Of a stretch of 54,219 bases of DNA, positions 1 through 52,592 are shown piece after piece (positions within the stretch are counted from its first letter, which is position 1; every line of letters starts with the position of its first letter). The notes below the pieces were generated by a model. It was not told the origin of the DNA. It saw only the letters and a program-made list of their open reading frames with translations, and ran no database searches. Origin of the DNA: a virus; IMG/VR virus record IMGVR_UViG_3300045257_000227, positions 1 through 54,219 of that record; one strand, 5' to 3'. Both the position numbers and the translations under genes were made by a program.

Positions 1-253
1 TCGTCGGCGCGCGTCTGCATCCGCCGTTTCAACTCGTCGAGAGACGATTTTAGCTGTGTTTCCGGGTCGGTGACCGGAATTTGGAACTTGCGCTTGGCCT
101 CGTTCACCAGGCGGATCAGGCGGGATTCGTCGGCGCGCGTCTGCATCCGCCGTTTCAACTCGTCGAGAGACGATTTTAGCTGTGTTTCCGGGTCGGTGAC
201 CGGAATTTGGAACTTGCGCTTGGCCTCGTTCACCAGGCGGATCAGGCGGGATT
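1..253. repeat. 126-bp in-frame tandem repeat, two copies
   Basis: Bases 1-126 are repeated exactly at 127-252 (the match continues one base to 253). The unit is 126 bp, so on the minus strand it encodes 42 residues read twice in the same frame inside the giant polyvalent protein (about residues 2887-2928 and 2929-2970). The unit is charged and probably helical; it contains the stretch NEAKRKFQIPVTDPETQLK. The same sequence returns as the last 127 bases of the window. Copy number could be wrong, because an assembler with a word size near 127 cannot count a 126-bp repeat. Confidence 0.95.
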
Positions 254-3200
254 CCTCGGCGGACGGCGTGCGCCGTTCCAGCCCCGTTTTCAACGGCGGT
301 TGACCGGCCTGCATATCCTCCAATTTGGCAACCTGTTGCATCTGCCCCTTGAGGTCGCGCACTTCCTTGGAAATCTCGTCTTTGGAAAGACGTTTGAAAT
401 TGCCGTAGCCGCTGATGGCGTCCATCGCATCCCGCCGGGTGATGGTCGGGTCGATGTCCAGCAAGACGCCGTGAACCGCGTCAATCAGTTCGTCCCGGTC
501 GGCAATGCCGTCCTCGACGAACAGCCGGGCAAGCCGCTGTACGAGGGGCGCAATCGCGTCGAGTGTGCCGCCGGCCAGCTTGTCACCAATCTTGTTGCTC
601 AAGTCCTCCTGCCGTTCCTTCACGGTCTTGGGTGCCTGTTGCGCGGCTTTGATTTTGGGGGCCGTGTACTTGCCAGCCACTTGTTCATTGAGTTCAGTCC
701 GGCGCTGTTCAGCCGCCTTCCAGATTTGAGTCAGGTGCTTTTTGATGTCCTCTCCAAGCTCGTCCACCATCTGTTTTGCCCAATCCGAACCGACAATCCC
801 CTTGATGATTTTAGCCGCTCCGTAACGGGCGTAATCAATCAAGTCCTCTGGCGGCAGGATGGTCAAACTGGCGTAGGTTCGACCTTCCTTGCGACGGGCC
901 TTGATACGGGCCAAGGCGTCTGACGCCTCTTTATCCGCGACTTGGATGATGCGGTCGGACAGCTTCCGCACGTTCGGCGGGAGCGTGACCGTCGTTTTGA
1001 AGATGTCATCCAGCGTCTTTTTGGCCTCCAACTCGCTAATTCGCTGATTCGTCCGATTTACATATTCGTCATGTTCCTTTTGTAGCTTGTCAATGTCCTC
1101 GTGCAACTGGCGTACTTCCTCAATCTGATCATCGGTCAGGGGTTTGCCGCCGTTGGCCGCGCGTTTGCCGGTTTCCATCGCCGCCAACGAGTAATCTTCG
1201 CGTGCCATCATCTTCCGGGCGTTCAAACCGCGCCCCGTCTCGGTGCCGACACGCTTGTTCACTTCGTAAATCTCGTAAAGCTGGTCCGCTGCCGCCGCCA
1301 CGCGCCCGCGCAGTTCTGCCGCGTCCGCCAGCCGGTTCGGGAAGTCCTTGCCGTCCTCGTAGGCGTAGGCCAAGTCCCGAGTGAGCTTCCCGTAATCGTT
1401 TTGGAGTTCAATTTGACGGTGCAGGAGCAACGCATCCTCAAAATCGGTCACCGCGCGTGGATTGGCCGAAAGCTCGGCAACCAGTTCGTCCTGGATGGCG
1501 GGATTCTGGTCAACCGCGGCCATTGCCTCGTCCCACACGCGGCCAAAGCCCCGGCGAGCCTGTTGCATGGCCGGGGGCAGCCCGCGCAAGGCACGCTCGC
1601 GCTCAACCGTGGCGTTCTTGATGCCGGTCGCGCCCGTCCATCCCGGTTGCTCCTCCTCGGCACTTGGCGTCATGGCACCCATGCTCGGGCCAAGGTTCTT
1701 TTTACTCCGGGTCTTGTTGTTCGAGTCGGAAACGTTACTTTGCGCTGCTTCACCGGTTACTTCGGGCCGAAAAGGTGATTTGGTGATGTCCCGTATTGCG
1801 TCCGCTACCTTTTCCAGCTTGTTTTCTTCGATGGTGACTTCCATCCGGTTACCGACTTTGGTGAAATCACCGGTGAGCCGGACAAGTTTCGGGTCGAGGA
1901 AGATTGAACCGCCGGTACGCCGCGCCGCGCCGGTCTTGACCAAATAACCGCTGCCCGAACGGGATGGCGTGATACTGACGATACCCCCGGACGTGACAGA
2001 GTGCGGGTTGTAACGGTTGACGTGGTTCGTCAGGTAATGTTTTACGGCCGCACCGCTGGTCAAATCCAAGCGGGGGTCGCTGGCAAGGTTCTCCGGTCCC
2101 CAGTTCTTCGGCATGAGCAACCCGGTGATGGTTGAACCGTCATGCGACTGAAAACGTACCATCTTGCCGCGTCCGCCGGTCGCGGTGTAGCCGCGTATCG
2201 GGTTGCCGACGACAAAGTAACGGTCATACCGTGCGCCCTTGCGTCCGCCGGCCAAATCTTCGGGCTTGGCGTCACTGGGTTCGATGCTCCATTTCTCCGG
2301 GTTGAACATGCTGCCGGTCAAATGAGCGATACCGCCAGGAGCGTCTATCATGAAGGTGAACCGGAAAGCCGACGGCGCAAGCCGGTTGCTGTTCGGCGGG
2401 GTGAACTTCACCAGCATGGCGTCAAAGCTCTCGCCGGTTTCCTTGTCGGATAGGTTGACCACTTTGCCAGCCGTTCGGGTGATTTCGCCGACGAGGGACA
2501 TTGTTCTGTCCCGCCAGCGTTGCACCGCCTCGTCATGCGTGCGGATTGCATTCTCGGCTTTAACCTTTTCTATGTCCGTCTTGGCCTCGGCCAACTTCTG
2601 TTGCAAGTCCGTCGAACGCTGGTCTAGCCGTGCGTTGGCTTGGGTCGAAAAGTTATCGAACTCAGCCTGTAACTTCTCCGGGGTGCCGTGGTTCTTGGCT
2701 AGTTCTCTGGACATTTCCGCGCCGCTTGGGACATGCCGGTTGTCCTGCACGTTCCATTGTTGCAACCGGACGCTGGCCGTGAAGATGTTGCTCTCGTCGG
2801 TGCCCGGTGAAAGTTCCTCGTCGGTGCTTCGGATGCCGTCCCAATCGTCGTGGGTGACAATCTCCAAATCGTACTCGCCGGTGTTCTTCAACTGCTGGAT
2901 CAGTTCGCGGTAGGCCGGAATGATGTACTCGTAAGCCTCTTTCTGCCACGCATCGGGCATCCTGGCCATGCGCCCGGTAAATGTGCGGGCCAAGTCCTTT
3001 TTGACTTCCGGGCTCCCGTCCTGCTTGTGCTCAACCTGCAAATCCAGCATGTCCTGCAAGTCCTGCCGTTGGTCGAGGTAATCCGCCACAACCGCATCGC
3101 CGTACTTGTTCAAAAAGTCCTCGGATTCAATCTTGATGGCGTTGTCAGCTTCCGCCGTGGTGTTGGCGTTGAGCGATTTCATTTTGCGCGCGGCCATCGC

Positions 3201-6200
3201 CGCCGGACGCAGTTCCGCCTGCAACGGCAACACGAGATGCGAATACTTAGCGCCGTAGGGCTGGCCGGCCTCGTCCTTACCCTTCATCACCAAGCCGGTT
3301 CGGAAGATGCGCCCGAGCGTTTGGACGAAAGTATTGATGTCCGCCGCCGGCTGCGCGATGAGCATGTGCCGGGGTTTCTGGTCTTTGAACTTCTCGCTGG
3401 CGTGGGCGCTCAAGCCGGTCGAGCCTGACGCATTGAGCAACATCCCGTCGTAAGCGCCGCTGTTGAAACCATTGACCACCTTGTTTTTCTTGGCCGACGG
3501 GAAACGGGTGTAAGTGCCGATACCCTGCTCAAAGTCGGTGTAATTGATACCGCTTTGGCGTCCGGTCAATTCCACCATCTTGACGCCCGCCTTGTTCAAT
3601 TTCTGGATGATGTAATCAATCGGCGAGACGGGAAATTTGCTCTCGATGCCTTTGGCGATTTCTTCAATCTGGTGATATTGGCTTTCCAACACCGGGCCAA
3701 GGTTGGCCGGGTCCATCTGCCGGACAATGGTATCGCCGTTGGGTAGCTCCTCGGAAATACGGAGTGTTCGCGCCAGCGCATGAGCTAAAAGCTCATTCCA
3801 ACGGATTTGCAGCGTGTCACCGGCCTTCATGCCCCTGTCTTGGGCGTAATGGTCAAGAAAACTCTCCATCGTGTTCATCAGGGCGATGACAGGCTTTTCG
3901 CCGCGCTTGTGCGCCGCGATGGCTTCCTCGACAACTGCATCGGCCTTGGCTGCGAGCAACAGTTGACCTATTTGATTGTGGACGATGGACGCGAAATCGG
4001 TCATGGCAATCTGTCCCTCGGTCATCGCCGTTGATCCCTCCTGAGATTCCCGCACGCCTTTGCTGAACTCCACGAGTTGTTGCAGCACGTCCGTTACTTG
4101 GTCTATGTGGTCAACCAGTTCCGCCTCGTCCGCCACTTGCACCGGCAACATCTTGTAGGACACGCCGGTAAATTCGCGCTCGCGCCGCGTGTATTGGCCG
4201 GCCTTCGCCAGTGCTTCGGACACCGCCTGTTGCAACGCCACGCCGCCGCGCTTCATGGCGTCCACAATCTGCCCAAACGAGTCCGCCGCCTTTTTTAACG
4301 CCGTGCGGAAGTAAACCGGCATGTTCTCCGGGCGTTTGGCGTAGGTCGCCGACAGATAGGCCACGCCGCCGCCGCGCTCGGTTTTTGTGCCCGACGCATT
4401 GAGCAACCCAGGCACGTTGACAAACTCGATGTTCGACCCCGAACCGCGCTTCACCCTGCCGCCTTGAAAGAAAGCCGCCTGCATGGACGTTTCGGCATCG
4501 CCCGCCGCGTCGTGCGCCTCGTCCATCACGAGGACGACGGGATTGCTGTCCGTCAGCCGTTCCAGAAACAACTGCCGCGCGTTGCGCGTGTTGATTTGTG
4601 AGTAAGTGGCGAATATCGCGTTGTACCCCGTCTCGGTCAGCCCGTTTTGTAGAATGTTTGCAATGCTTTCGTCCTGCAATTTCTTCGACGGCGAGCGGTG
4701 AATAACGTTGCCTTCAGTGTCAACGATGTGCGCCTTGGTAGAGTCACCGAGGATGAACGGCTTGAGCGTAGTCGAAAGCTGTTGCGGCGTTTGTTCCAGC
4801 AAATCACCCATGTCCCCGTACATGTCGCTGAATAGCTTCGGGTCTTTCGTGAAGAAAACAGGTATGGCGCCGTTCTTCATGGCGTACCAGAGGACCGCCG
4901 CGGCCTGACGCCCTTTGCCGATGCCGGTTTGGTCGCCGATGATGGTCGCGCCGTCGTGCTTCATCTGGTCAATCGCCATTGCCGCGCCGTCCACCTGCTC
5001 GCCGGAAAGAACACGCTTCAATTGTTCAACGGGTAGCTCAAGCTCTTTGGCGAGAAAGTCGTCTAACGGGCCGACGCGCGTTTTCAGGTCGTCGAGGTAG
5101 GCATGAACACCGGGAGCGATGGATTTGGGGATGAGCGTGCCGAAAGCGGGTGCCGTGCTGCGCGGTTCATAGGCAACTTGATATTCGGTGCCTTTGACCA
5201 GTGGCGGTTCTTTTACGTCGGGCTCCGGTGCGGGTGCGGTTTTCTTTTCCTCCAAATAATGTTTGAGATACGGCTTGATGGCATCGCTGTAACTGTTGAG
5301 AAGGAACTGGGCGTATTCCTTGAGGGATTTACCGGCCTTTTGGAATTGCTTCCACGCCTCATCGAAATGGGGCTTTGCCTCGGCGTAGGTTTTCTCGTCG
5401 AAACCTGGGGTGAGTGCGCCAAGGCGTGTTTTGCTGCCAAACAGTTTGTTCAGTCCGGTCATCGCCTCGTCCACGCCCGCAACGCCGTGCTTGGCCGCTT
5501 CACGGATGATGTCCGTTGCGCCTTTTTTTGGGGCAACTTCAAATTCGGGCCGACGAGTTTCGGACTTTGCCGTGACAACACCTTCACGAGTCGGGATGAT
5601 TCGTACTGGTTCCGTGACCCTCACGTTGCCTTCAACGTATGACCTAACTCCGTTTTCATCCTCGTAAACATCTTGCCCTTCGGTATTTTGTCCAACGAGC
5701 TTGCGCTTTGAACGGGATTCTACGTTTTTTGTATTGGCCGCGCTCGCATCTTCAATCAGCGCGTCAATGTCATCCAACTCGGCAAGCTGTTTGTCGATCA
5801 GAGAAACCGGCTTAGAAACGATTCCAGACTCAGCGCCTTTGCCTCCTCCTGCGCCTCGTTCTCCGGTGCTGGCGGGAGCTGCACCGCCTCCGCCATCCCC
5901 GCTTTCCACTCCGCCAACTGGCTGTTTATCTCCGCCGGTTGCATTATCAGGGCGTTCGCCAGCCGCGGGCTTTGGAACTTGTCCGGCGGCAGGTTTTGCA
6001 GGTTCTCGAACGGCAGGTTGTTCTCCAACTGGCGGTCGGCTGACTCCTTTTCCTCCGGGCTTGCCTCCCCGATCAGGCGTCGGAGCAATTCCACTTGGAG
6101 GACGCGCAGCACTTCCGCTGACTTCGGCGGGTTCCCGCTCTGTTGGAGGACGCACAGGTACTCGGGGTGTTCCGCCGGCATCCACGGCTTTTCGTTGGGA

Positions 6201-8912
6201 TTCAATTTCATTGCGTATCCTTTCACTTTCGTTCCAGACTTCGCCCCAGGTGTTGAAGCGGGTCACTTGCTCCGGGCTGTACTCGCCGGGCTTCAAAGGT
6301 TCAGCGCGCCGGCCATTTACCACGAGAATTCGGACAGGGAACTTTGCCCCCTGATTGGCGTACAAATCGCCGTTCACTTCAAAATTGCCGACAACGTTGT
6401 AATGCGAGTACAGGTAGTTTTCAAATACCCGCTGTGCACCGCGTCCGGTCTTGGAAGAATGAAGGCCAGCACCGAGGATCATGTATCCGGCGCCGTCGTC
6501 CTTCATGGCGTCGAGGGCTTTGGCCGAAATCAGGTGTTCGAGGCGTTTGATACCGTAGCCGCCGATGTTTTGATTGTCGGAAGGACCGAAAGGCGGGTTC
6601 GTGTGGACGCGGGAGAACTGGCCTTTGGGTCGGAACTTGGTCGCGTCCTCGCCGGTCACGGTTTTCACCCCGTTTTTCTTCAATTCGGCAATGCGCTCTG
6701 GGTTTTTCTCGTTGGCCGCTGACTTGCCATGTTCGCCGCCAATCATCAAAGCGCCGTTACCCGCTGTCGGCTCGTAAATGTCCTGGCCTTCGCTGCCGAC
6801 GGCATGGTTCAGGGCGTAGGCGAGCGGGACCGGAGTCGAATATGCCTGGTCCTGCATACTCGTGGATGTGCGCCCGGAGAATCGAGGCTGATTCCTGTAA
6901 AGCTCCGTCAGGTGGTCAAATTTCTGTTGCGGGGTGATGTCGGGTTGTTTGGCAATGCGGTCGGCATGACGTACAAGCTCGGCCTCGACGGTTTCTTGCA
7001 TGGCCTTGGTCGTGACGCCCCGACGGTCGGCCATGTTCTTCATGAGCGCGGCTTTGGCGATGCCCGAGGCAGGGGACAGGATCAAATCGGATATTTCGGG
7101 GTCAAGTCCTTCCGGGGTTTTTGGAGGAGTGACCGGCGGTTTGGCCTTTGCTGGTTCTGGAATTGGGTCTTCTGGAAGTCCCATTTCCTTTTTCAATTGA
7201 TTGTCTTTTTTGAGCTTCTCTTGTTTGGCCTTTATTTCCTCATCAGTCATGTCCCTGACAGAAATTTCCACTTCGTTTTTTGAACCGTCCAAGATTTCAC
7301 CGTACGTTTTGACTCGGTACTCTGACGGCTGCGTAACGGTGTTTTGGCCGTTCACTGAAACCACTTTTGCAGCGTCACCTTCGTCGTAAGTATCCCCGAC
7401 ACGTTTCCCGTTCGCTGTTTGAGTCCAGTTCTTTACGGTGTTTCCCGACTTGGTGTTTCTCAGAGTAAATTTTGCGCCGCTTTCGTGGGTTTGTTCCTCG
7501 TCCGGTTTGATTTCGGTAGCAGGTTTTTCAACTTTCGGCGCTTCCTCGGAGATTATTGGAAATGGTGCCTTGAAATCAGGATTGCGCCGGAGCATTTCTT
7601 CCCCACCGCTGCCGGTTCCGGTCGCTGCTTCATATGCCTCTCGAAAGAACTGTGGCTTGGTAGCCAACTGCATCGCCGCGTTCATGTCACCAGATTCTAG
7701 CTTCTGCTTAAAAGCGGTGGATGCTGCTTGTTGATGGTCTTTCAACGCCTGTAATTCCTCAGGTGTCTTGATGGACAACCCGAGGCGGTAAGCCGCGTTC
7801 GTAAGTCCGCCTGTCTCGGCTCGGGTGAACTTGTAAAATTGGTCGCCATCCATCGCCAGAACGGATTGCATTTGTTTTACTGATTCCGGTAAATCCGCCT
7901 CCGCTTGGGTCGGCTTCGTTTCATCCGGTGCCGATTTCGTTCCACTTTCGGGGGCAACCGTTTCAGAAACAGGGGCAACCGTTTCAGGCGACTGCTCCGG
8001 CGGTCGAAATCCTCTCGGCGTTTGGTACACCCCTTCCGGCGGGGTCTGACGCGGTACTGTCTCGGTCCTGGCCGCCGGTTCGGAGTCCAAAAATTCACCG
8101 GCATCGACGTTTTTGGCGAGTTCCTTCGCCGCCGCGTCCAGCCGCTTTTCTTTCAGGACCGTTATCGGCGCTCGCTCATCTACCTTGTGCGCTCCCCCCA
8201 AAATACCCATCAGGACCGCATTGGCCGCGGCGTCCTCAATGGCCGTGTCCCGTTCTGCGCCGGGAGTCATCTGTGAAATCTGGTAAACCGACGGCGCCGA
8301 TATAATCGTGGCTACGCCGCCGGCGCCGCCCGCCCGGTCAATCAGTTCCAGTGCCTTGTCCGACGTGATGCCCGCCTTTTCCGCCACTTTCGCCGCCACT
8401 TTTCCAGCGAACTTTCCCGCATACGGCGCAATCATCGCCGTGGCCGCTTGCACGGGGTCAAACCCCTCTTTGTTGAAGCCAAACGACGCCGCGCCGACGA
8501 CCGGCAAGACGGCGGTTGCCGCCAACTGGGGAGCACTGGCTATTGTGCTGGCTCCTACGCCTGCCGCTGCACGCGGGATGAGCGGTAACGACTGGCGCGC
8601 TTCTTCCCAAGGCGACGTATCCAACAGGTTTACGTCCTCAAGTGCCTTTTTGGTTTCCGGCGGGAGATTAGCCTCGGCGGTAGATTTGATTTCCTGCTTG
8701 GCAAGGTCAAGATTGCCCGTTGAGAGCAATGTTCCCGCCTTTACCAAACCGGAAATAAGTTCGCCGCTGCGCGTGAAGGCGTCGCCGATTGTGGTAGTGA
8801 CCTTGTGTAACCCGTGAGGCTCGTTTGGGTCGTCAAAATCCGATTCGTCGAACTTCAAAGGCGCTGCGGCCTGTGGTTCAGCAAAGTCATCCTCTGTGAA
8901 TGTCAGCGGCAT
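1..8912 (-). CDS. giant DarB-like polyvalent protein, N-terminal 2970 codons (runs through the contig junction)
   Basis: The frame is open from ATG 8912 to base 1 and continues at 54092 to a stop at 52589, giving about 3471 aa. Seen in order: an Ala/Gly-rich hydrophobic stretch (about residues 107-185); a methyltransferase-like motif I, EPTAGNGAL (714-722), and catalytic-type NPPFG (772-776); a Pro/Gly-rich linker (about 900-1020); a helicase with Walker A GDQTGIGKG (K1333), DEAH (1464-1467) and a C-lobe with GLSAHASE and LGRIFRTG (about 1830-1870); then long helical regions. Methylase followed by a Strawberry-notch helicase is the layout of phage P1 DarB, a virion protein that protects injected DNA from restriction. 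By analogy this protein is packaged and ejected with the DNA; that is inference. It lies 13 bp after the 309-aa gene. No clear Shine-Dalgarno sequence precedes the ATG. Confidence 0.88.
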   Translation of the reverse strand, partial: MPLTFTEDDFAEPQAAAPLKFDESDFDDPNEPHGLHKVTTTIGDAFTRSGELISGLVKAGTLLSTGNLDLAKQEIKSTAEANLPPETKKALEDVNLLDTSPWEEARQSLPLIPRAAAGVGASTIASAPQLAATAVLPVVGAASFGFNKEGFDPVQAATAMIAPYAGKFAGKVAAKVAEKAGITSDKALELIDRAGGAGGVATIISAPSVYQISQMTPGAERDTAIEDAAANAVLMGILGGAHKVDERAPITVLKEKRLDAAAKELAKNVDAGEFLDSEPAARTETVPRQTPPEGVYQTPRGFRPPEQSPETVAPVSETVAPESGTKSAPDETKPTQAEADLPESVKQMQSVLAMDGDQFYKFTRAETGGLTNAAYRLGLSIKTPEELQALKDHQQAASTAFKQKLESGDMNAAMQLATKPQFFREAYEAATGTGSGGEEMLRRNPDFKAPFPIISEEAPKVEKPATEIKPDEEQTHESGAKFTLRNTKSGNTVKNWTQTANGKRVGDTYDEGDAAKVVSVNGQNTVTQPSEYRVKTYGEILDGSKNEVEISVRDMTDEEIKAKQEKLKKDNQLKKEMGLPEDPIPEPAKAKPPVTPPKTPEGLDPEISDLILSPASGIAKAALMKNMADRRGVTTKAMQETVEAELVRHADRIAKQPDITPQQKFDHLTELYRNQPRFSGRTSTSMQDQAYSTPVPLAYALNHAVGSEGQDIYEPTAGNGALMIGGEHGKSAANEKNPERIAELKKNGVKTVTGEDATKFRPKGQFSRVHTNPPFGPSDNQNIGGYGIKRLEHLISAKALDAMKDDGAGYMILGAGLHSSKTGRGAQRVFENYLYSHYNVVGNFEVNGDLYANQGAKFPVRILVVNGRRAEPLKPGEYSPEQVTRFNTWGEVWNESERIRNEIESQRKAVDAGGTPRVPVRPPTEREPAEVSGSAARPPSGIAPTPDRGGKPGGKGVSRPPVGEQPAVREPAKPAAGQVPKPAAGERPDNATGGDKQPVGGVESGDGGGGAAPASTGERGAGGGKGAESGIVSKPVSLIDKQLAELDDIDALIEDASAANTKNVESRSKRKLVGQNTEGQDVYEDENGVRSYVEGNVRVTEPVRIIPTREGVVTAKSETRRPEFEVAPKKGATDIIREAAKHGVAGVDEAMTGLNKLFGSKTRLGALTPGFDEKTYAEAKPHFDEAWKQFQKAGKSLKEYAQFLLNSYSDAIKPYLKHYLEEKKTAPAPEPDVKEPPLVKGTEYQVAYEPRSTAPAFGTLIPKSIAPGVHAYLDDLKTRVGPLDDFLAKELELPVEQLKRVLSGEQVDGAAMAIDQMKHDGATIIGDQTGIGKGRQAAAVLWYAMKNGAIPVFFTKDPKLFSDMYGDMGDLLEQTPQQLSTTLKPFILGDSTKAHIVDTEGNVIHRSPSKKLQDESIANILQNGLTETGYNAIFATYSQINTRNARQLFLERLTDSNPVVLVMDEAHDAAGDAETSMQAAFFQGGRVKRGSGSNIEFVNVPGLLNASGTKTERGGGVAYLSATYAKRPENMPVYFRTALKKAADSFGQIVDAMKRGGVALQQAVSEALAKAGQYTRREREFTGVSYKMLPVQVADEAELVDHIDQVTDVLQQLVEFSKGVRESQEGSTAMTEGQIAMTDFASIVHNQIGQLLLAAKADAVVEEAIAAHKRGEKPVIALMNTMESFLDHYAQDRGMKAGDTLQIRWNELLAHALARTLRISEELPNGDTIVRQMDPANLGPVLESQYHQIEEIAKGIESKFPVSPIDYIIQKLNKAGVKMVELTGRQSGINYTDFEQGIGTYTRFPSAKKNKVVNGFNSGAYDGMLLNASGSTGLSAHASEKFKDQKPRHMLIAQPAADINTFVQTLGRIFRTGLVMKGKDEAGQPYGAKYSHLVLPLQAELRPAAMAARKMKSLNANTTAEADNAIKIESEDFLNKYGDAVVADYLDQRQDLQDMLDLQVEHKQDGSPEVKKDLARTFTGRMARMPDAWQKEAYEYIIPAYRELIQQLKNTGEYDLEIVTHDDWDGIRSTDEELSPGTDESNIFTASVRLQQWNVQDNRHVPSGAEMSRELAKNHGTPEKLQAEFDNFSTQANARLDQRSTDLQQKLAEAKTDIEKVKAENAIRTHDEAVQRWRDRTMSLVGEITRTAGKVVNLSDKETGESFDAMLVKFTPPNSNRLAPSAFRFTFMIDAPGGIAHLTGSMFNPEKWSIEPSDAKPEDLAGGRKGARYDRYFVVGNPIRGYTATGGRGKMVRFQSHDGSTITGLLMPKNWGPENLASDPRLDLTSGAAVKHYLTNHVNRYNPHSVTSGGIVSITPSRSGSGYLVKTGAARRTGGSIFLDPKLVRLTGDFTKVGNRMEVTIEENKLEKVADAIRDITKSPFRPEVTGEAAQSNVSDSNNKTRSKKNLGPSMGAMTPSAEEEQPGWTGATGIKNATVERERALRGLPPAMQQARRGFGRVWDEAMAAVDQNPAIQDELVAELSANPRAVTDFEDALLLHRQIELQNDYGKLTRDLAYAYEDGKDFPNRLADAAELRGRVAAAADQLYEIYEVNKRVGTETGRGLNARKMMAREDYSLAAMETGKRAANGGKPLTDDQIEEVRQLHEDIDKLQKEHDEYVNRTNQRISELEAKKTLDDIFKTTVTLPPNVRKLSDRIIQVADKEASDALARIKARRKEGRTYASLTILPPEDLIDYARYGAAKIIKGIVGSDWAKQMVDELGEDIKKHLTQIWKAAEQRRTELNEQVAGKYTAPKIKAAQQAPKTVKERQEDLSNKIGDKLAGGTLDAIAPLVQRLARLFVEDGIADRDELIDAVHGVLLDIDPTITRRDAMDAISGYGNFKRLSKDEISKEVRDLKGQMQQVAKLEDMQAGQPPLKTGLERRTPSAEESRLIRLVNEAKRKFQIPVTDPETQLKSSLDELKRRMQTRADESRLIRLVNEAKRKFQIPVTDPETQLKSSLDELKRRMQTRAD
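5798..6211 (-). CDS. 137-aa gene overprinted inside the polyvalent gene
   Basis: This frame lies on the same strand as the giant gene but is shifted, and it sits over the segment encoding that protein's Pro/Gly/Ala-rich linker. It starts at ATG 6211 (MKLNPNEKPWMPAEHPEYL) with a good Shine-Dalgarno AAAGGA six bases upstream. Composition is that of an ordinary soluble acidic protein rich in Leu, Glu, Asn and Gln with few Arg or Gly, unlike a shadow frame. Residues 30-60 and 95-137 look helical. I do not recognise a family. The giant protein looks like low-complexity linker exactly where this one looks folded, which argues that this frame carries coding constraint. A GTG start five codons earlier is possible but poorly placed relative to the Shine-Dalgarno. 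Confidence 0.65.
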   Translation of the reverse strand: MKLNPNEKPWMPAEHPEYLCVLQQSGNPPKSAEVLRVLQVELLRRLIGEASPEEKESADRQLENNLPFENLQNLPPDKFQSPRLANALIMQPAEINSQLAEWKAGMAEAVQLPPAPENEAQEEAKALSLESFLSRFL

Positions 8913-8925
8913 TTCGTTCGCTGGC

Positions 8926-9855
8926 TTATTCCGCGCCTTTTAATTTACCTTGAACCGCCAAAATGACTTGGGCTTTCGACCAATCCGGGTGATCGGCGGC
9001 AATCTTTTGGGCGAGTGATACCTTGTCCTTTTTGGTCATGTCCTCTGGCGGTGCCGAAAACGAGACGCGCGCCGGGCTGTTGGTTATCTGGTTTTCCAGT
9101 TGCCCAATCCGCGCCGCTTTGTCCGGCTCCATCTCCGGGGGCACCTTGCTCGAAAACAGTTTGGACACCTGAGCTCGTAAAACATCGGGGGATGCCGCTT
9201 TTTCTGCTAACTTTTCAGCGGCAGTCTTTTCGTGCAAGGCTTGCGTCGCCGTGGTTTGATCATGGTTCAACGCCGAATTATACCGCGCATTCCACCGGGT
9301 TGAATACCCAGGCATTGAGAGCAACAAAGGATACGATTCGATTACCTTACGGACAGGTTTACCCCCGGCAATGTCAGACAGGGCGCTTTGTTCGTCCTGT
9401 TGCGCCTCGTATTGATGCTCCGGGCTCGCCGCAAACTGTTGTTGGATAGTCAGCTTCTTTTTCTCCGGCAAACTAGCCGCCGCAATCCATTTTTCTTCCG
9501 CCGGTTTGAGGAAAATCTTGCCCGCGTCGGCTGGCTTATACCCGCTGTTTACGCCTTTCAAATAAGCCGCCTGTGCCGCATCCAGTTCTTTCGCTGCGCC
9601 CGGCTTCATCGCGTCGGGCACGTCTTTCAACACTTCCCACTTATCCCGCACGGGCGACAGGTAAAGTTTGTCCGCGTCGTCCTCGTTGTAACCGGAGTTG
9701 ATGCCGGCGCGGTAACGCTGTTGGGCCATGTCCCATTCGTTTTGAAACTGTTGTTCTGGCGACGAGGGCGCGGTCGGTTGCTGCGGCGTCGAGTCCCGAA
9801 AGGAGAACGTGCTTGGATCTCCGGCACCGGACAAGATGAGGGGTTGGGCAGGCAT
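8926..9855 (-). CDS. probable internal virion protein with a duplicated 26-residue motif
   Basis: This 309-aa protein is of unknown family. An internal duplication is visible: residues 48-73 and 98-123 align closely, sharing the pattern Y..G.NSGY...DA.K..L.P...KW, 50 residues apart. The rest is rich in Ala, Lys, Gln and Glu and is probably helical, with a charged C-terminus ending GKLKGAE. No signal peptide or membrane segment is seen. It sits directly upstream of the giant polyvalent gene and downstream of the Gln-rich proteins. I infer a role as an internal or ejected virion protein made with the polyvalent protein. Confidence 0.8.
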   Translation of the reverse strand: MPAQPLILSGAGDPSTFSFRDSTPQQPTAPSSPEQQFQNEWDMAQQRYRAGINSGYNEDDADKLYLSPVRDKWEVLKDVPDAMKPGAAKELDAAQAAYLKGVNSGYKPADAGKIFLKPAEEKWIAAASLPEKKKLTIQQQFAASPEHQYEAQQDEQSALSDIAGGKPVRKVIESYPLLLSMPGYSTRWNARYNSALNHDQTTATQALHEKTAAEKLAEKAASPDVLRAQVSKLFSSKVPPEMEPDKAARIGQLENQITNSPARVSFSAPPEDMTKKDKVSLAQKIAADHPDWSKAQVILAVQGKLKGAE

Positions 9856-9856
9856 A

Positions 9857-10021
9857 TTACCTATTTTGTATGCGAACGTTTTTCCACACTATGCACAATG
9901 AAGCAATGATTGTGGCTTCAAGGTTGGTTACGGTTATAAAATTTGGAATAATTCGGCCAAAGAACACGAAAAAAAACATCGGCCACAAATAAACCAGATA
10001 TTTATCTAGGTAGGTTTGCAT
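9857..10021 (-). CDS. 54-aa hydrophobic membrane protein
   Basis: This short frame starts at ATG 10021, three bases after the stop of the upstream Gln-rich gene, and ends two bases before the start of the 309-aa gene, so it fills the only gap in this run. The protein begins MQTYLDKYLVYLWPMFFFVF. It has a strongly hydrophobic, aromatic segment (about residues 8-30), a second weaker one (about 37-47), and a basic tail ending KNVRIQNR. The tight fit between neighbours is the main support. No family is recognised; a membrane-acting role in DNA ejection or lysis is only a guess. Confidence 0.6.
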   Translation of the reverse strand: MQTYLDKYLVYLWPMFFFVFFGRIIPNFITVTNLEATIIASLCIVWKNVRIQNR

Positions 10022-10024
10022 TTT

Positions 10025-10579
10025 TTAAACGAAAGGCATTGGTTTTACAGGAGTACCATAGGGAGCGGGTGTGGTTTGGGGAGCCGTAATCGAGCCAGGT
10101 GTAAGCGGAATCTGATTGAAAATGCTCATCCCTGTATTCCCTGTCGTGGTTCCCGGATACTGCAATTGGGCGATATACTTTTGCAGCGCCAACTGGTCTT
10201 GCGCCAGCTTTTCATTCGCCGTCTGCGCCGATGACTGCAACCCGTATTGTTGCGTCTGTCCGGTCTGCGCCAAACCGAAATTTTGTTCCGCCAGCTTTTG
10301 GGCAAATTGTTGTGCGCTCACATTCAAACCGTACTGCTTGTTGTAAGCATCCGTCGCCGCCTGCAACTGGTCTTTCTGCAAACCAAGCTGGCCGGAAGCA
10401 TTTGCCGCCGCGTCCTTCTCCGCTTGGGTCTGCAATCCAAGGTTGGCGTCGAACTGCTGGCCGCGCTGCGCGAGTGACTGCTGTTGCAGTCCAAGGTTCT
10501 GCCCGAACTCGCTCGCCTGCTGGCCCTGCTTGTTGGTGAGCAACCCTTGCAGGTAGGTCAAAATGTTGTTGAAGTCCAT
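10025..10579 (-). CDS. Gln-rich repetitive virion-associated protein
   Basis: This 184-aa protein is dominated by Gln, Ala, Leu and Asn. Its quasi-repeats of the form FGQNLGLQQQSLAQRGQQFD suggest a long helix or coiled coil over residues 15-140. The C-terminus is Pro/Thr/Gly-rich. No signal peptide or enzyme motif is seen. The upstream neighbour has the same composition and the two are probably paralogous or co-assembling. The position between the tail genes and the ejected polyvalent protein suggests an internal virion or ejection protein. The family is not recognised. Confidence 0.75.
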   Translation of the reverse strand: MDFNNILTYLQGLLTNKQGQQASEFGQNLGLQQQSLAQRGQQFDANLGLQTQAEKDAAANASGQLGLQKDQLQAATDAYNKQYGLNVSAQQFAQKLAEQNFGLAQTGQTQQYGLQSSAQTANEKLAQDQLALQKYIAQLQYPGTTTGNTGMSIFNQIPLTPGSITAPQTTPAPYGTPVKPMPFV

Positions 10580-10582
10580 AGG

Positions 10583-11218
10583 CTAAAATGATTGGAGGTT
10601 GCCCGGTAATTGGCCGGTGATTTGATTGCCCAACCCAAGCGCCGATAGCATGGCTTGGAACTGGTTCAACTGGTTTTGTGTGTTGGCCTGATTTTGCTCG
10701 AACCCAAGGTTTTGCTGGAACTGCTGGTTCTGCTGGTTCTGGCCCTGGCTGAACTCGCTGCCCTGTTGCGCCAGATTTTGACCGAACTGCTGGTTCTGCA
10801 TCTGCTGGCCTTGGTTCGCCAGCGCGGGCGACGTGTAAGTACCGATGGTCTGCATCAAGTCCTGCAAACCTTGCTGCTGGTTTTGCTGCGCCTGTTGGCC
10901 GTACAAATCCGTTCCCCGCTGGCCGATGAAAGAGTTGATGTCCCCAGTGCCGCCGGGACCGCCAGCCGGTTGTCCCGCGCCGACACCCCAGTAAGCGTTT
11001 GTCGTCCGGGCTTGAGACACCGAAGGAAGCCCGTCCAACAAGTTCCCGATAGCTCCGGTTGCGCTTTTTGTCAGGTTGCCGATACCTGGTAAAACTGACT
11101 CCAAAAACTGCTGGCTGTTGGCACCGCCGGGCGGCTGGTTGAAACCGAAAGTCTTGGCCTGCATGATCGACGCCGGCTGCACGGGCTCGGAACTGTTTTG
11201 TGGGTTGCTATATGGCAT
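10583..11218 (-). CDS. Gln/Asn-rich repetitive virion-associated protein
   Basis: This is a 211-aa protein. The N-terminal half is Pro/Gly/Ser-rich with a hydrophobic helix near FLESVLPGIGNLTKSATGAI. The C-terminal half is extremely Gln/Asn-rich (repeated FGQNLAQQ and NQQFQQNLGFEQNQ motifs), resembling the downstream 184-aa protein. It starts three bases after the connector-like gene and is three bases from the next, so it is co-translated in the late operon. It is probably an internal or ejection protein or a minor tail component. No known family was identified. Confidence 0.75.
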   Translation of the reverse strand: MPYSNPQNSSEPVQPASIMQAKTFGFNQPPGGANSQQFLESVLPGIGNLTKSATGAIGNLLDGLPSVSQARTTNAYWGVGAGQPAGGPGGTGDINSFIGQRGTDLYGQQAQQNQQQGLQDLMQTIGTYTSPALANQGQQMQNQQFGQNLAQQGSEFSQGQNQQNQQFQQNLGFEQNQANTQNQLNQFQAMLSALGLGNQITGQLPGNLQSF

Positions 11219-11221
11219 AGG

Positions 11222-12217
11222 TCAATACGGATTTTTGATTCTTCGGCCCATGACGGCGTTCACGCGGATGGGAGTTTGTTCGTCGCTGTTCTTGTCGCGC
11301 ATCTCAAAGTTCATTTCGCGCACGGCCTGCATGATGGCCGCTTCCGCGCCCGGCGTGTCCCCGGCCTCGTTTTGCTTGATGGAATTGAACATGTAGATAA
11401 GCGCATCCATGTTGTCAATCATCAGAAAATCCCGGTCGTTTTTGACCGGAATGAATTCGAGCTTTATTAACGCCTCGACGGTCGTCCAGCAAATGCCGTT
11501 GGCGTCGGGCTTCGAGGCATTGTACGGGCTCGACATGATGCGCGAACGGCGGATGCGAGGATTCGTGTCGTTCGGTTCAAATGCGGCCAAATCGCGCAAG
11601 GTGTTCGCGCTTGGATCGTACTCGTACAGGTAAGCCATGCCGTCGGTCGCCTGCCGGTTCACGGCGTCAATCCGGGTCACGAGGACAGAATTCGTCGCCC
11701 ACGGCGCGGCGGCGGTCAAAGTCATCCCGTTTTGCCATACCCCGTTGATTTGTTCCTGTAACGGTTGACCGCCGTACTGCGTGCCAAAAAGTGTGATTGT
11801 CTTGCCGATGTCCGTCGTTTTGGTCGTGTAGTAGCGGATGAGTTTTCCGGTCGTCCCGCTTACTTCGTTGGCGGTCGGCCCCAGGTTGGCATCCTCGACC
11901 ACCGCGTCACAGTGAAACCCGCTATGCCGGTGATGCGGCCCCACGAAAGAGAAATTGTTGTTGAACAGTTGACCGGGTTTGCTGCATCCGAACCGGATAC
12001 CCCGAACCGCCCCCACCCACCTTGGCCACGCGATAATACAACCGGAAACACAGAAGGCAACTACCCACTCGGTATCAAACCAGTCACCGCGCCGGAGCAA
12101 CATCCGTTGCGAACGGTTCACCAGATCAATGAACTTGGCCGATGACGCACAAACCGCCGAGGCTTCCACAAGTCCGAGTTCGGATTTTGCGTCAGCCAGG
12201 GTGAAGCGGTAAGCCAT
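11222..12217 (-). CDS. putative head-tail connector (adaptor) protein
   Basis: This is a 331-aa soluble protein. The N-terminus (MAYRFTLADAKSELGL) reads like a helical segment, the middle (about 120-220) is beta-rich, and the C-terminus (about 255-320) is helical around LIKLEFIPVKNDRDFLMI. It lies immediately downstream of the large nozzle-like protein, an arrangement that recalls the paired adaptor and nozzle genes of T7-like phages. I infer an adaptor or tail-tubular-A-like role from position and size; no diagnostic motif is visible. An unusual Trp/Cys-rich patch lies near residues 47-75. Confidence 0.5.
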   Translation of the reverse strand: MAYRFTLADAKSELGLVEASAVCASSAKFIDLVNRSQRMLLRRGDWFDTEWVVAFCVSGCIIAWPRWVGAVRGIRFGCSKPGQLFNNNFSFVGPHHRHSGFHCDAVVEDANLGPTANEVSGTTGKLIRYYTTKTTDIGKTITLFGTQYGGQPLQEQINGVWQNGMTLTAAAPWATNSVLVTRIDAVNRQATDGMAYLYEYDPSANTLRDLAAFEPNDTNPRIRRSRIMSSPYNASKPDANGICWTTVEALIKLEFIPVKNDRDFLMIDNMDALIYMFNSIKQNEAGDTPGAEAAIMQAVREMNFEMRDKNSDEQTPIRVNAVMGRRIKNPY

Positions 12218-12239
12218 GATGAGTAGTTATCCTTTTGTT

Positions 12240-15200
12240 TTACACGATGGTCAAGTTGATTGTGGCCGGTGCCAGTGTGCCGGCGTTCGACCCAAAGAAG
12301 CCATTCCCCACGTTGTCGGCCTGAAATACCAGCGTTGTGACGGCACCCGGCGGACAAACTATCGTCGCCACGCCGTCGAGTTTTCCACCGGGCGGGTAGC
12401 CGGGAGGTGTGGCAACCGCGCCGTCCTGCCGGTAATAAACCACCGCGCCGTTGAACTTGACTCCATGATAAACCCCGGCGCCGGTATCGGCTATCACGGG
12501 TATTTTGGCTTGCAGGGTCACAGGCGATGCGCTGTTGTTGCAAAAGCTTGCCGTGTAAAAAGCCGTCTCAGCAACCAGACAAGCGAAATTTCCATGCCAG
12601 TTTTGAACAACCGTCGGCGCCGCGCCTGTGCCGCCAAAGTTTATCGCGCAGCCGCCGCCGGTCTGTACCCACGTCAGGTTTGCCAACAAGCTCGCCCCAA
12701 CCCCAGGACACGCGATGTTGAGCGTTGGCGCAACTTGCGTGTAAAACGCCAGCGCCTTCGCGTCCGCTTCGGCCTGTGTCGTCCCGAAGAACAAACCCGC
12801 CGCGCCGATGACTGCGTTGTTCGCCGTGTCCACCGCGATGTACGGCGGCAACTGGCCGGTCGCCACTGGCCCAGTGCCCAAAGAACACATTGAAATCGGA
12901 CAATAATTCGACAGCGTGATAGTGCCGTTTGAAAACGGCTGCACAGGTCCGGGCGTCGGCAATGGCACGACCGGCGGGAAACCTTGCAGCCCATAAAGTC
13001 GGAAATTGTCCGGTTGGTCGCAGTCTATCAACTGACACGGAGCCTCGGTGCACTCGACCGGCGCGTACACCGTCTGCGGTATGGTGATACAAGACGCGCG
13101 CATCCCTTTGAACACGCACGAGCCGGTGATGACGACGCGGCATTGGAAGAAATAGCCGTTGCGGAGTGGCCGGTTGTTTCCGATCTCGCAAGGAGTCACG
13201 TCAGGCTCGCCCAGGCCGACGCGCATCCGGTAGCCCGGCTTGCTGTTGTTCGCGTCCGTGGACTGGCATACGTCGAATGAGTTCCATTTTGTCCAGCACG
13301 GGTAAAAATCAGGTCGATAATAAACGTCCACATGTACCGCGCCTTGGATGTCGCTCAAATAAACTTCGCCGTCGCGCAGTTGCACGAGGTCATTCAGGCT
13401 CTTGACGTTCTTGTTAAAAAGAACCGGCGTCTCGAATGCCCAAAGTATCGGCGTCACATCGTTGTCCGCAAACGACGTGGTTTTTTCCTTCAACGATTCG
13501 TAAAGTTCAATCTGGTTGGTCGTGTAATTGAAGGAGAAGGCGAAAGCACGGCGTACTCCGTTCACGCGGCCAACAATCATTTGTAAAATGTTGAGCCCCG
13601 TCCACAACCCTTCCCAAGCCGACGGCACGGTTGAACGCAGGGACGACAACAGGTCTGAATTGTTGACCACCACGCCCTGATGAATCACTCCCGCCGTGGT
13701 CGTTTGTGGTGAGACAGTTTCCACTTTGCGATTGTCGAAGGACATGCCGCTGCCGAAAGAGAGCAACGCTTGGCTGTCCGGGTCGAGAATCGTCCCGACT
13801 TCATTGCTGACAGATTTGTTGCCCGGACTGTTCTGGAAAAAGTCGCGCCGCGCAATGATGAGTGAACCGATGCCGATATTCGACCGGAAGTAGGTGTCCG
13901 AGTCGCAAATGAACGTGGAATTTTGACCAAGCGGCCCGTTGTCCTTGAGGGCTTCGGATTCAATCGGGCTGGTGATGTTGGCCCACGTCGCCGGGTCAGT
14001 GCCGATGACAAAGTTACTGAAAACCGAAAATGGCGTGCCAATCATCAACGGCCCTTGGCCTAGTGACGTATCGAGCAAGGGAGGAAACCAAATAGCGGTG
14101 ATCTGGTCGCCTGTGCCAGGCAGACGGAATGAGCCGCCGCCTTTCAGGAACGTGTTTTGCGTCATCTTCAAAACCGCGTCCCGGTAATTATTTGCCTGAG
14201 TGCCCGCGCCGGAGCCGACAACATCGCTGGTGACGTAACTTATTCCGTCCGTCAGACTCAACGCATTGACTCCCATCCCGTAAGCGCCCATTCGTCCGGC
14301 GGGAATTTCTGGTACTGAAACAATCGGTGAAGGATTTGTATAATTGAGGGTTTTGGTATCGGTCAGGTTAATCAACATCAGCGTGGTTCCGCTTGGTGGA
14401 GGCGCAACCGGCTGGATTGAAAACCAAGTCCCGTTTATTCGGACGAGTGTGCCGCTGGTGCCTGTGAACGGTTGCGTCAGATTGATGGTGATACTGCCGC
14501 CAGCACCCGGAACAACGAAGTCCGCGGCCGTGGCTCCGACAATAAACGATGTCCCGTTCAACGTGTTTGAAAGGATTGACCCGGCGGGAAGCGTGAAGGT
14601 GATATTGTTCACATTGGCCGAATTGCCAAAGATAACGAGTTGGATAAATCCCGCCCCTGAATCTATCGGCCCGCATTCCAAAGGAAGTTTAGACCCGTCG
14701 TAATTTGTGTAACCCGGAAACCCGGTGCCGGGATTTGGAGGAGCATTAAGGACAAGACCAGAGGCGTAAAGCGGTGACTGTCCGTTGTGAAAAACACTTG
14801 TGTCATTCACATAAATGTCCGGCTTGTTGGCGATTCCAGACGCGGCTTTGGTTGTGATGCCAACAGCGCCAGATACGACCACTACATTGTTCCCGGCTGG
14901 TATGGTTGAACCGGCAGGAGCCGTTATGTTGGTCAAGATGACTTGATAACCACCGGCATTTTGAATCGGCTGGTAGAACTCCCCGTTGAAAATCACCGGA
15001 ACATTGTAGGGTCCCGTATAAGCCTGGCTCAAAGTCACTGTCTCAATCGCTCCAATCGCCGGGGGTTTCACTGGAGCAAAGGCGATGGCCGTTCCCACAT
15101 TTACCGAAGGTCCGTAAGACCGCCGTGAGATTGTTCCGTCGTAAAAGATTGGAAGCTTGCCGGTGCCGTCTTGAACGATCATCCATTTTTCGGCTTGCCA

Positions 15201-15596
15201 CATCCAGATTTGTGAAACGTTCGGATCGTTCAAATCGCCGGGTACCGAAATGTCCAACACGTTCCACACGCTGCCGATTTCGGTAAACAGAATCAGGTGT
15301 CCGCTGATTTGTGCGATGAGCGATTCCGTCCCGTAGTCCGGTCGGTAATACCCGCCGCCTTGGAACAAACCCGTCTGCACGAGCGTTTGCAGGTTCGCAT
15401 CACCGTTGAAATTGAAAGTTTTCTTCTGGTACGGCGGTCGATGCGTGGCAAAGCCGCCGCGCACGGAAAGGTTCAAACCAAAGGCGAGTTGATTAGGGGG
15501 AAGCAAAAGCGGGGAGACGCCGCCGCTCATGCCGGCTTCAAATGAAGAAATCAGATCGTCATACGCTCGCGGCGAGAATGTTTTTTCGACAGGCAC
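12240..15596 (-). CDS. large tail nozzle-like or tail hub protein
   Basis: This 1118-aa protein is beta-rich throughout. The N-terminus contains SPLLLPPNQLAFGLNLSVRG (about residues 28-47), a style common at the start of phage propeller-type tail nozzle proteins that replace T7 gp12. Residues 80-200 have propeller-like blades; 200-400 are rich in Thr, Gly, Asn and Val and resemble carbohydrate-binding insertions. A Cys-rich part (about 770-900) could hold disulfides. It follows the fibre gene by one base and precedes the connector candidate. Nozzle function is inferred from the N-terminal style and context; a receptor-binding hub is the alternative. Confidence 0.55.
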   Translation of the reverse strand: MPVEKTFSPRAYDDLISSFEAGMSGGVSPLLLPPNQLAFGLNLSVRGGFATHRPPYQKKTFNFNGDANLQTLVQTGLFQGGGYYRPDYGTESLIAQISGHLILFTEIGSVWNVLDISVPGDLNDPNVSQIWMWQAEKWMIVQDGTGKLPIFYDGTISRRSYGPSVNVGTAIAFAPVKPPAIGAIETVTLSQAYTGPYNVPVIFNGEFYQPIQNAGGYQVILTNITAPAGSTIPAGNNVVVVSGAVGITTKAASGIANKPDIYVNDTSVFHNGQSPLYASGLVLNAPPNPGTGFPGYTNYDGSKLPLECGPIDSGAGFIQLVIFGNSANVNNITFTLPAGSILSNTLNGTSFIVGATAADFVVPGAGGSITINLTQPFTGTSGTLVRINGTWFSIQPVAPPPSGTTLMLINLTDTKTLNYTNPSPIVSVPEIPAGRMGAYGMGVNALSLTDGISYVTSDVVGSGAGTQANNYRDAVLKMTQNTFLKGGGSFRLPGTGDQITAIWFPPLLDTSLGQGPLMIGTPFSVFSNFVIGTDPATWANITSPIESEALKDNGPLGQNSTFICDSDTYFRSNIGIGSLIIARRDFFQNSPGNKSVSNEVGTILDPDSQALLSFGSGMSFDNRKVETVSPQTTTAGVIHQGVVVNNSDLLSSLRSTVPSAWEGLWTGLNILQMIVGRVNGVRRAFAFSFNYTTNQIELYESLKEKTTSFADNDVTPILWAFETPVLFNKNVKSLNDLVQLRDGEVYLSDIQGAVHVDVYYRPDFYPCWTKWNSFDVCQSTDANNSKPGYRMRVGLGEPDVTPCEIGNNRPLRNGYFFQCRVVITGSCVFKGMRASCITIPQTVYAPVECTEAPCQLIDCDQPDNFRLYGLQGFPPVVPLPTPGPVQPFSNGTITLSNYCPISMCSLGTGPVATGQLPPYIAVDTANNAVIGAAGLFFGTTQAEADAKALAFYTQVAPTLNIACPGVGASLLANLTWVQTGGGCAINFGGTGAAPTVVQNWHGNFACLVAETAFYTASFCNNSASPVTLQAKIPVIADTGAGVYHGVKFNGAVVYYRQDGAVATPPGYPPGGKLDGVATIVCPPGAVTTLVFQADNVGNGFFGSNAGTLAPATINLTIV

Positions 15597-15597
15597 A

Positions 15598-16395
15598 TTA
15601 CGTCAGTTCAAGCGCCGTCAGTGATGCCTCAACGACATTGAAAGAGCCAGCCGAAGGGATCACGGACAACGATATAAAAGGCTGGATCACGTCCGACACG
15701 CCCGCAGTAGAATAGGGCACGTCACAGGTGATTTCCCCGAAACCGTAAGTGACCGTCGTAACGACCGCCGTTTGCAAAGTGGTCGAGGCAAGATTTGCTG
15801 CCGTGTTGTTCGTGCGCCGGATGGTGAGCGTGACCGTCTGGTTGGCCGCGAACGTCGCGCCAACGTAATCAAGTCTCAGTCGCGCGCGCAACAGATACGT
15901 TTTGCCTGCCGACCCTACCAGCGTCAAAGTTGAGGCAAGCGCCTGAGCCGGTGTTGCGGTCACGGCCTGAGAGCCGCCGGTCGCTGCACTCTGCGTAGCC
16001 AGCACGGTGAAACCAGCCGAACCTTGAACACCCGTCGGTGTCACACTGGCACCCGCCGCGATAACCACCGTCGGCGCGGAGTCGCCATTGTCGCCCTTGT
16101 TCCGCAACGTGACCGCCGGGGGTGAAGCCTGAATCGCGGTAACAAGGAAATGGGCAAGGTTGGTTCCGTCCGAAAGAAAAAGGCTCTGCCCTATCGCCAT
16201 CCACGAAACATTTGCCACGCCGATTTGAACCGTTGAATTGACCGCCGGAATGGTGAGGTTGGCCGTGGTGACCGTGAACGAGTTGACGCCGTTCGTGCCG
16301 TTGCTTCCCGCCGCGCCCGTGGCTCCCTGAGAACCTGGCACACTGATAATTTCAGGTGAAGGGCACGGACAATTTTTGTCCAGCGTCGTTGACAT
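15598..16395 (-). CDS. collagen-like tail fibre protein
   Basis: This is a 265-aa protein. After a short Cys/Pro-rich start, residues 21-37 carry collagen-type Gly-X-Y triplets (GSQGATGAAGSNGTNGV), a trimerising element seen in phage fibres. The remainder is beta-rich and Thr/Ala/Val-rich, with a probable jelly-roll-like C-terminus from about residue 130. It is the first gene of the large minus-strand late block, diverging from the terminase gene 51 bp away. A role in host recognition or as a short fibre attached to the nozzle protein is inferred. Confidence 0.7.
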   Translation of the reverse strand: MSTTLDKNCPCPSPEIISVPGSQGATGAAGSNGTNGVNSFTVTTANLTIPAVNSTVQIGVANVSWMAIGQSLFLSDGTNLAHFLVTAIQASPPAVTLRNKGDNGDSAPTVVIAAGASVTPTGVQGSAGFTVLATQSAATGGSQAVTATPAQALASTLTLVGSAGKTYLLRARLRLDYVGATFAANQTVTLTIRRTNNTAANLASTTLQTAVVTTVTYGFGEITCDVPYSTAGVSDVIQPFISLSVIPSAGSFNVVEASLTALELT

Positions 16396-16446
16396 GACTC
16401 TCTTTTGCTCTGTATTTCCCCCTTTGTCAAAGCTATTTTGAAATCA

Positions 16447-37322: not shown

Positions 37323-37486
37323 GGCACGGCAAATCAAGACTACTTCCGAATTGCGATTGCGGTGCGGAACTGCGTGCAGACCGAGGCCGTATTTGTGAAA
37401 AATGTGGGTGTTGCCGCTGCTCAAAGTGCTGTCCAAAGCGTTCCAACGGAAAGAGGATTTGTGCTGGCTGTTGGCTTGGTCCCTAA
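37319..37486 (+). CDS. 55-aa Cys-rich zinc-ribbon protein
   Basis: ATG 37319 overlaps the previous stop. Of 55 residues 11 are Cys: pairs in NCDCG, ICEKCGCCRCSKCC and ICAGC. The spacing suits two or more zinc sites, similar to small zinc-ribbon proteins. It ends the plus-strand cassette and converges with the glycosyltransferase gene, overlapping its stop by four bases. Function is unknown; nucleic-acid binding is plausible. Confidence 0.7.
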   Translation: MRHGKSRLLPNCDCGAELRADRGRICEKCGCCRCSKCCPKRSNGKRICAGCWLGP

Positions 37487-38265: not shown

Positions 38266-38384
38266 TGGGTTTTGTCTGTGTGAAAGGCGCTCGAAAACAA
38301 TTCAATGCTGCCAGTTCCTTTGCATCGCTTGCAACGCCGCCGAATCTTTGGTTGCTTCGGCAACCATGGGGTTTTAGATTTCAT
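38232..38384 (-). CDS. 50-aa DnaJ-type zinc-finger protein
   Basis: A short frame, MKSKTPWLPKQPKIRRRCKR, contains two CxxCxGxG modules, CKRCKGTG and CHSCGGKG, the type used in DnaJ zinc domains and other zinc proteins. A basic N-terminus precedes them. It starts one base after the double glycosyltransferase gene stop. The two paired motifs make chance unlikely. Possibly a small RNA- or protein-binding factor. Confidence 0.65.
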   Translation of the reverse strand: MKSKTPWLPKQPKIRRRCKRCKGTGSIELFSSAFHTDKTQCHSCGGKGFI

Positions 38385-38385
38385 G

Positions 38386-40542: not shown

Positions 40543-40559
40543 GGTATAATCGTCTTAGA

Positions 40560-52540: not shown

Positions 52541-52592
52541 TGGCGGCTTGCTTGGCGCTCGGAGTAGCGACGGTTTCTCGAAAGGAGTTCAT
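52446..52592 (-). CDS. possible 48-aa coupled protein after the polyvalent gene
   Basis: An ATGA overlap with the polyvalent stop opens a 48-codon frame: MNSFRETVATPSAKQAAIDL, then a basic region (LQRRCKNKKLPPPK). It overlaps the start of the metallopeptidase-like gene. The overlap style is that used throughout the genome, and the first 25 residues look helical. Its second half looks random. Confidence 0.4.
   Translation of the reverse strand: MNSFRETVATPSAKQAAIDLWRLQRRCKNKKLPPPKTIENRHRNNPAR

Follow-up and report, generated by a model that had tools for sequence, protein, structure and literature searches.

The window analysed here, the whole of the 54,219-bp IMG/VR virus contig IMGVR_UViG_3300045257_000227, raises the question of what a phage might do with a single gene that takes up about 19% of its genome and ends an operon divergent from the terminase gene. 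This gene starts on the minus strand with an ATG at 8912, 13 nt beyond the stop of the upstream gene, and reads down to position 1 (1..8912; residues 1-2970), where it is still open after 2970 codons. It resumes in phase at 54217-52589 (542 codons) and runs to a stop at 52589, its C-terminal part as an ORF thus occupying 52589..54219 across the contig junction. Circular translation with removal of a 127-nt overlap yields 3471 codons with a single terminal stop, which bears out both the unbroken frame and the share of the genome given in a first-pass annotation of this DNA. The contig also encodes a terminase large subunit (16405..18231, plus strand; phrog_2, 8e-11), a DnaB-type helicase, an Erf-like protein and an exonuclease VIII-like protein, and this set of genes identifies it as that of a tailed phage.

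The first-pass annotation had further read the contig ends as a plain 127-bp overlap and the protein as one of about 3471 aa. We found instead that an identical 127-mer is present three times (1-127, 127-253 and 54093-54219), and that an exact in-frame tandem repeat of 126 bp (1..253, minus strand), coding for a 42-aa segment twice running, lies precisely at the contig junction. The 42-aa segment is single-copy in the relatives L031 and L047, and an assembly graph with k=127 would leave just this pattern, in which the unit measures 126 (k-1) and the word that recurs is exactly 127 (k) long. Hence, the second copy is probably an artefact of the assembly end, and our best estimate is that the true length of the protein is probably 3429 aa; the figure of 3471 stands as the codon count of the circular reading. 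A real and recent in-frame duplication, giving a protein of 3471 aa or longer, is a less probable but by no means negligible alternative: the unit is divisible by three, and a genuine perfect repeat would likewise interrupt an assembly with k=127 just here. Nevertheless, it would leave the match of the unit to k-1, with exactly one repeated 127-mer, to coincidence, and it sits poorly with the single copy in the relatives. A search with the DNA pattern that a strain with one copy would show at the junction returned no match.

The catalytic portion of the giant protein is a cassette (residues 592-2389; 1746..7139, minus strand) made up of a methylase, a Strawberry-notch (SNO) helicase and a C-terminal extension, and it can be aligned with proteins of the viral contigs L018 and L019, of Bacteroides phage BS-TP4 and of plasmids. 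Residues 592-960 form an HsdM-type adenine methylase domain, whose gamma-class N6-adenine methylase core (residues 680-880; 6273..6875, minus strand) is supported by motifs, profile and model and carries the STP, EPTAGNG and NPPF motifs, which are kept in relatives. The methylase profile recovered EcoR124II M from the PDB at 5e-7, and the top PDB matches of an AlphaFold model (pTM 0.68), although weak (E 2e-3 to 2e-2), were mostly type I M proteins. C-terminal to the methylase we observed a complete SNO-type SF2 ATPase (residues 1300-2019), both domains of which score above the Pfam cut-off: AAA_34 (PF13872, 9e-17) for domain 1, with the GDQTGIGKG, DEAH and SAT motifs (residues 1300-1596; 4125..5015, minus strand), and the Strawberry-notch C-terminal domain Helicase_C_4 (PF13871, 2e-11) for domain 2, with LGRIFRTG (residues 1764-2019; 2856..3623, minus strand). 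A PDB profile search with the helicase gave no match. The catalytic motifs of both enzymes are kept across six relatives, and residues 2100-2389, which follow the helicase domains and lie where the winged HTH of an SNO C-terminus would be sought, are conserved in relatives alongside the helicase. With a gamma-class methylase preceding an SNO helicase, the assignment of this region to the SNO-type dyads is practically certain. The first-pass reading of an adenine methylase joined to a Strawberry-notch helicase in a polyvalent phage protein is thereby upheld by Pfam, profiles and motifs, with every quoted motif present; as in other polyvalent proteins, several distinct domains, including enzymatic ones, are combined (methylase, SNO helicase, the module termed MID below and a gp16-like module), and the gene lies among probable packaging and virion genes, in the late operon divergent from the terminase large subunit.

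Over the dyad, identity amounts to 42-50% with part of the 5855-aa L018 protein, 34% with the 3511-aa L019 protein, 32-36% with BS-TP4 gp3, and about 30% with plasmid proteins. Within the stretches compared, L018 and L019 have none of the operon genes in common with the window. The cargo of the L019 protein (5138-15673) is an unusual set, its methylase-helicase being preceded by histidine phosphatase and 2'-5' RNA ligase-like domains. In the papers that we found, no SNO-type methylase-helicase protein has a measured function.

Combinations of this kind have been described as a theme of polyvalent proteins, with P1 DarB, which also carries LPD36, as the archetype (Iyer et al. 2017, PMC5512222). 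The available portions of that work describe proteins in which, as here, an adenine methylase is fused to an SF2 helicase, and mention the SNO version of the dyad "in a few instances"; on their account a giant methylase-helicase protein by itself was already to be expected, and we found in them neither the combination with a gp16-type carrier nor allelic swapping at one slot. P1 DarB itself is a packaged anti-restriction protein (PMC9024508, PMC12810830), and the Dar proteins of P1 as a set are ejected, giving protection from type I enzymes (PMC12810830). The homology to DarB implied by the first-pass annotation did not hold up: P1 DarB aligns with the giant protein at blastp E values of 0.08-0.18, and values of about 0.1 rule out family membership by sequence, whereas BcepIL02 gp70 and a protein of Microcystis phage Mwe-JY07 reach 1e-19 to 1e-23 against DarB. 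The LPD36 motif GXG(G/A/S), which reads GEGGIGG in P1 DarB, is absent, by inspection, from the stretch that precedes STP. Both proteins have an adenine methylase followed by a helicase, but that of DarB is of the SWI2/SNF2 class rather than SNO, and DarB is devoid of a gp16-like C-terminus. As far as sequence comparison indicates, the likeness lies in domain order and probable role and not in family, and the giant protein may still act like DarB.

Two further modules follow the cassette. The MID module (residues 2411-2890; 243..1682, minus strand) includes a segment common to the giants of Bcep22-type phages, and the C-terminal module (residues 2938-3471; 52589..54092 plus 101-1, minus strand) is 64-67% identical in the related contigs G1 and L031. 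For the C-terminal ~540 aa we detected remote homology to the T7 gp16-type internal virion protein D. The connection to gp16 first emerged from L014, the protein of which hits phrog_6651 "internal virion protein" (8e-31); even with L014 left out, hhalign paired the C-terminus with internal virion protein D at probabilities of 94% (local) and 97.6% (global), scoring 70, whereas 40 column shuffles scored at most 24. An earlier comparison used a smaller carrier alignment; its score was 58, and that of unrelated giants did not exceed 37. The aligned part sits within gp16-C and the homology is at profile level only; as T7 gp16 itself aligns poorly with the giant C-terminus, we claim no residue-level equivalence. 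A PDB profile search with the C-terminus gave no match, the module was not found in the bacterial genomes, plasmids and phage records searched, and an AlphaFold model from three sequences reached a pLDDT of 38. A hydrophobicity scan displayed a single weak peak at residue 124 and, at the threshold used, none in the C-terminus. LPD38 was considered as the identity of the C-terminus and rejected, there being no profile similarity. T7 gp16-C is DNA-binding, has been modelled in the host cytoplasm and has been implicated in DNA entry that does not depend on transcription (PMC8954989). The gp16-like proteins listed there are 609-1337 aa long and have a peptidoglycan hydrolase at most, in contrast to the 1800-aa methylase-helicase inserted here. 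That the protein is ejected with the DNA, as the first-pass annotation had predicted, thus gains what appears from sequence to be independent support, since its C-terminal module is related to those of ejection proteins.

The genomic context points in a similar direction. Reading from the terminase gene, the minus strand carries a 265-aa gene with a Gly-rich repeat (15598..16395; phrog_31840 match) and then the operon, which comprises an 1118-aa gene (12240..15596), a 331-aa gene (11222..12217), genes of 211 aa (10583..11218) and 184 aa (10025..10579), a 309-aa gene directly upstream of the giant (8926..9855), and the giant gene as its last member. The 265-aa protein displays a collagen-like Gly-rich stretch near its N-terminus, and the G1 protein in the corresponding position (257 aa) has a match to a tail phrog. 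From its position, the 1118-aa protein is probably a tail protein. Its family is widespread in viral contigs, a profile recovering 80 loci (L031-L110), and the operon is kept in about 80 contigs, in the usual order of the 1118-aa gene, the homologue of the 331-aa gene (adjoining it in most of these contigs), two or three short genes, and then the giant gene, which varies freely between the loci. We regard this as very probably a late or virion operon. The place of the giant gene is compatible with that of a gp16-type gene, which would come last of the internal-protein genes, behind those for the tail. PDB profile searches with the 331-aa and 1118-aa families gave no match, and profile searches of the neighbouring operon genes gained no annotation. 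When 50,697 phage records were searched for cultured relatives with three members of the 1118-aa family, none matched, suggesting that the group may be an unsampled lineage.

Comparison of the giants in this slot illuminates how the present one was put together. The phage of L034 has a terminase 74% and a 331-aa protein 67% identical to those of the window, and its giant is 50% identical over the N-terminal module (residues 1-300; 8013..8912, minus strand), but it has a different C-terminus and no dyad. The L031 giant is 54% identical over MID and 67% over the C-terminal module, and has neither the N-terminus nor the dyad in common. As the nearest relatives thus match at one end or the other without the methylase-helicase, the giant gene is a mosaic, in which the slot of an exchangeable ejection protein holds a cassette of cargo: it seems that a methylase and DNA motor were inserted as a module into a protein that lacks them in close relatives. 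Among the 34 operon contigs searched, some of which are fragments, the dyad was detected in one, L106, in distant form. In that second phage of the operon group the distant methylase-helicase (G037, 14289-15389) lies in the same slot within a 3386-aa open frame, apparently an independent acquisition. The N-terminal cargo of other slot proteins includes no clear Pfam domain; in the L061 giant, residues 934-975 give a sub-threshold match to sigma-70 region 4, which might indicate an injected transcription factor.

Exchange may extend to the level of strains. The G1 contig (L008-L010) starts inside a C-terminus of the type found in this giant and ends in a complete giant of 1363 aa whose C-terminus is unrelated, and both C-terminal alleles precede near-identical stretches of 301 bp (297/301, 99%). 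Two strains with exchanged giant alleles are the best explanation, although a tandem pair of giant genes is possible. Taken with the mosaic structure, this suggests that these phages exchange injected tools at a fixed delivery slot. It is very improbable that the frame or its mosaic structure is an assembly chimera between phages. The junction does lie within a k-1 tandem repeat, and the contig end was hence imperfectly handled, but this repeat is inside the carrier and not at a cassette border, one open frame spans both module borders, the G+C of the cassette region is the same as that of its surroundings, and equivalent mosaic giants occur in other contigs.

In the first 60 residues of the slot proteins a short motif is often present two or three times, as FTEDDF/FDESDF here, PWEDFQ in L031, NPWEDGWE in L057, and FGVNDPPV, which occurs three times, in L050. 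In a non-redundant set of 27 slot proteins, 15 had their highest self-similarity among 16 windows at the N-terminus (1.7 expected; p about 7e-12, an optimistic value, as window size and score were picked once the pattern had already been noticed by eye), and 13 of the 27 N-terminal windows beat all 40 shuffles (0.7 expected). For this giant alone the signal is moderate, being matched by none of 40 shuffles and by one of the 15 other windows. Here, the duplicated motif (PLTFTEDDF/PLKFDESDF) lies in the first 30 aa (8823..8912, minus strand). Since the packaging signal of P1 DarB lies within its 30 N-terminal residues (PMC9024508), a docking role is a natural idea, and by this analogy the motif is a candidate packaging or docking tag.

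Neither the junction repeat, the gp16-like carrier, the mosaic cassette nor the duplicated N-terminal motif had figured in the first-pass annotation. Considering them together, we lean towards the proposal that the giant is a gp16-type ejection protein with a spliced-in SNO-type methylase-translocase cassette, which marks the entering DNA against restriction. The protein would be packed in the head, perhaps by means of the duplicated N-terminal motif, and would leave the particle together with the DNA or before it; such packaging and ejection we consider probable. A comparable giant, the 4515-aa DarB-like JC1 gp69, is a component of purified virions, with 51 unique peptides (PMC9144972). Once ejected, the C-terminal module could help to build a DNA-binding hub at the inner membrane, like T7 gp16-C, and the ATP-driven SNO motor could move along the incoming duplex, letting the adenine methylase mark it, such that the DNA would be spared by type I or similar restriction enzymes. 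An anti-restriction function of this kind seems to us somewhat favoured. More tentatively, a fixed "payload slot" might end the ejection operon, wherein an N-tagged gp16-type carrier takes interchangeable cargo, the methylase marks the genome in the ejection channel, and, given the two C-terminal alleles ahead of almost identical downstream sequence in G1, cargo is exchanged within populations.

Other roles for the same architecture deserve to be weighed against this. The cassette could be mainly a genome-internalization motor, in which a translocase on a gp16-like membrane hub reels the genome in and methylation is secondary; in its favour are the presence of an SF2-family translocase and a gp16-C-like module in one protein, and the part ascribed to T7 gp16-C in DNA entry. 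Against this, the methylase retains every motif, the same dyad is found on plasmids, where no gp16-type ejectosome exists, and its detection in just one of the 34 searched operon contigs indicates that it is not needed for DNA entry. We accordingly deem this reading unlikely. Many phage methylases work intracellularly, and the giant protein might likewise remain unpackaged and act solely after its expression in the cell, in DNA modification or replication. We judge this a little less likely still, given a gene that ends a late operon kept over about 80 contigs, a carrier domain related to ejection proteins, and the presence of JC1 gp69 in virions. If the ejected, DNA-marking protein is the right reading, then a methylase-motor sits at the point of genome entry, which would explain how modification can outrun restriction, and the duplicated N-terminal motif becomes a test case for the choice of packed proteins. 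Two themes that usually stand apart, namely ejection machines such as gp16 and injected counter-defence enzymes such as the DarB-like dyads, would be joined in one protein. It is the payload slot, its gp16-type carrier and the motif duplication at the N-terminus that make the protein worth following.

Other known giants resemble this protein in part. BS-TP4 gp3 (PQ571277, 5391 aa), whose gene adjoins the portal gene, is likewise a giant single protein with an SNO-type dyad; unlike the present giant, it has a carrier with InPase, ddrB-ParB and LPD38 modules and a C-terminus related to the Bcep22-type giants. The latter, from Lessievirus (BcepIL02 gp70 and JC1 gp69), are also giant virion-module proteins with a methylase-helicase and have the short MID segment in common with our protein via the related carrier G2, but their helicase is of the DarB type and not SNO, and neither the dyad nor the C-terminus gives a detectable match. 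In G2 (L011, L013) the 100-bp terminal overlap is a low-complexity CACGCAGCCC repeat, which makes its circular closure doubtful. Elsewhere in the window, at 37483-44000, lies a glycosyltransferase cluster with a phosphoheptose isomerase-like gene, perhaps for the modification of surface sugars.
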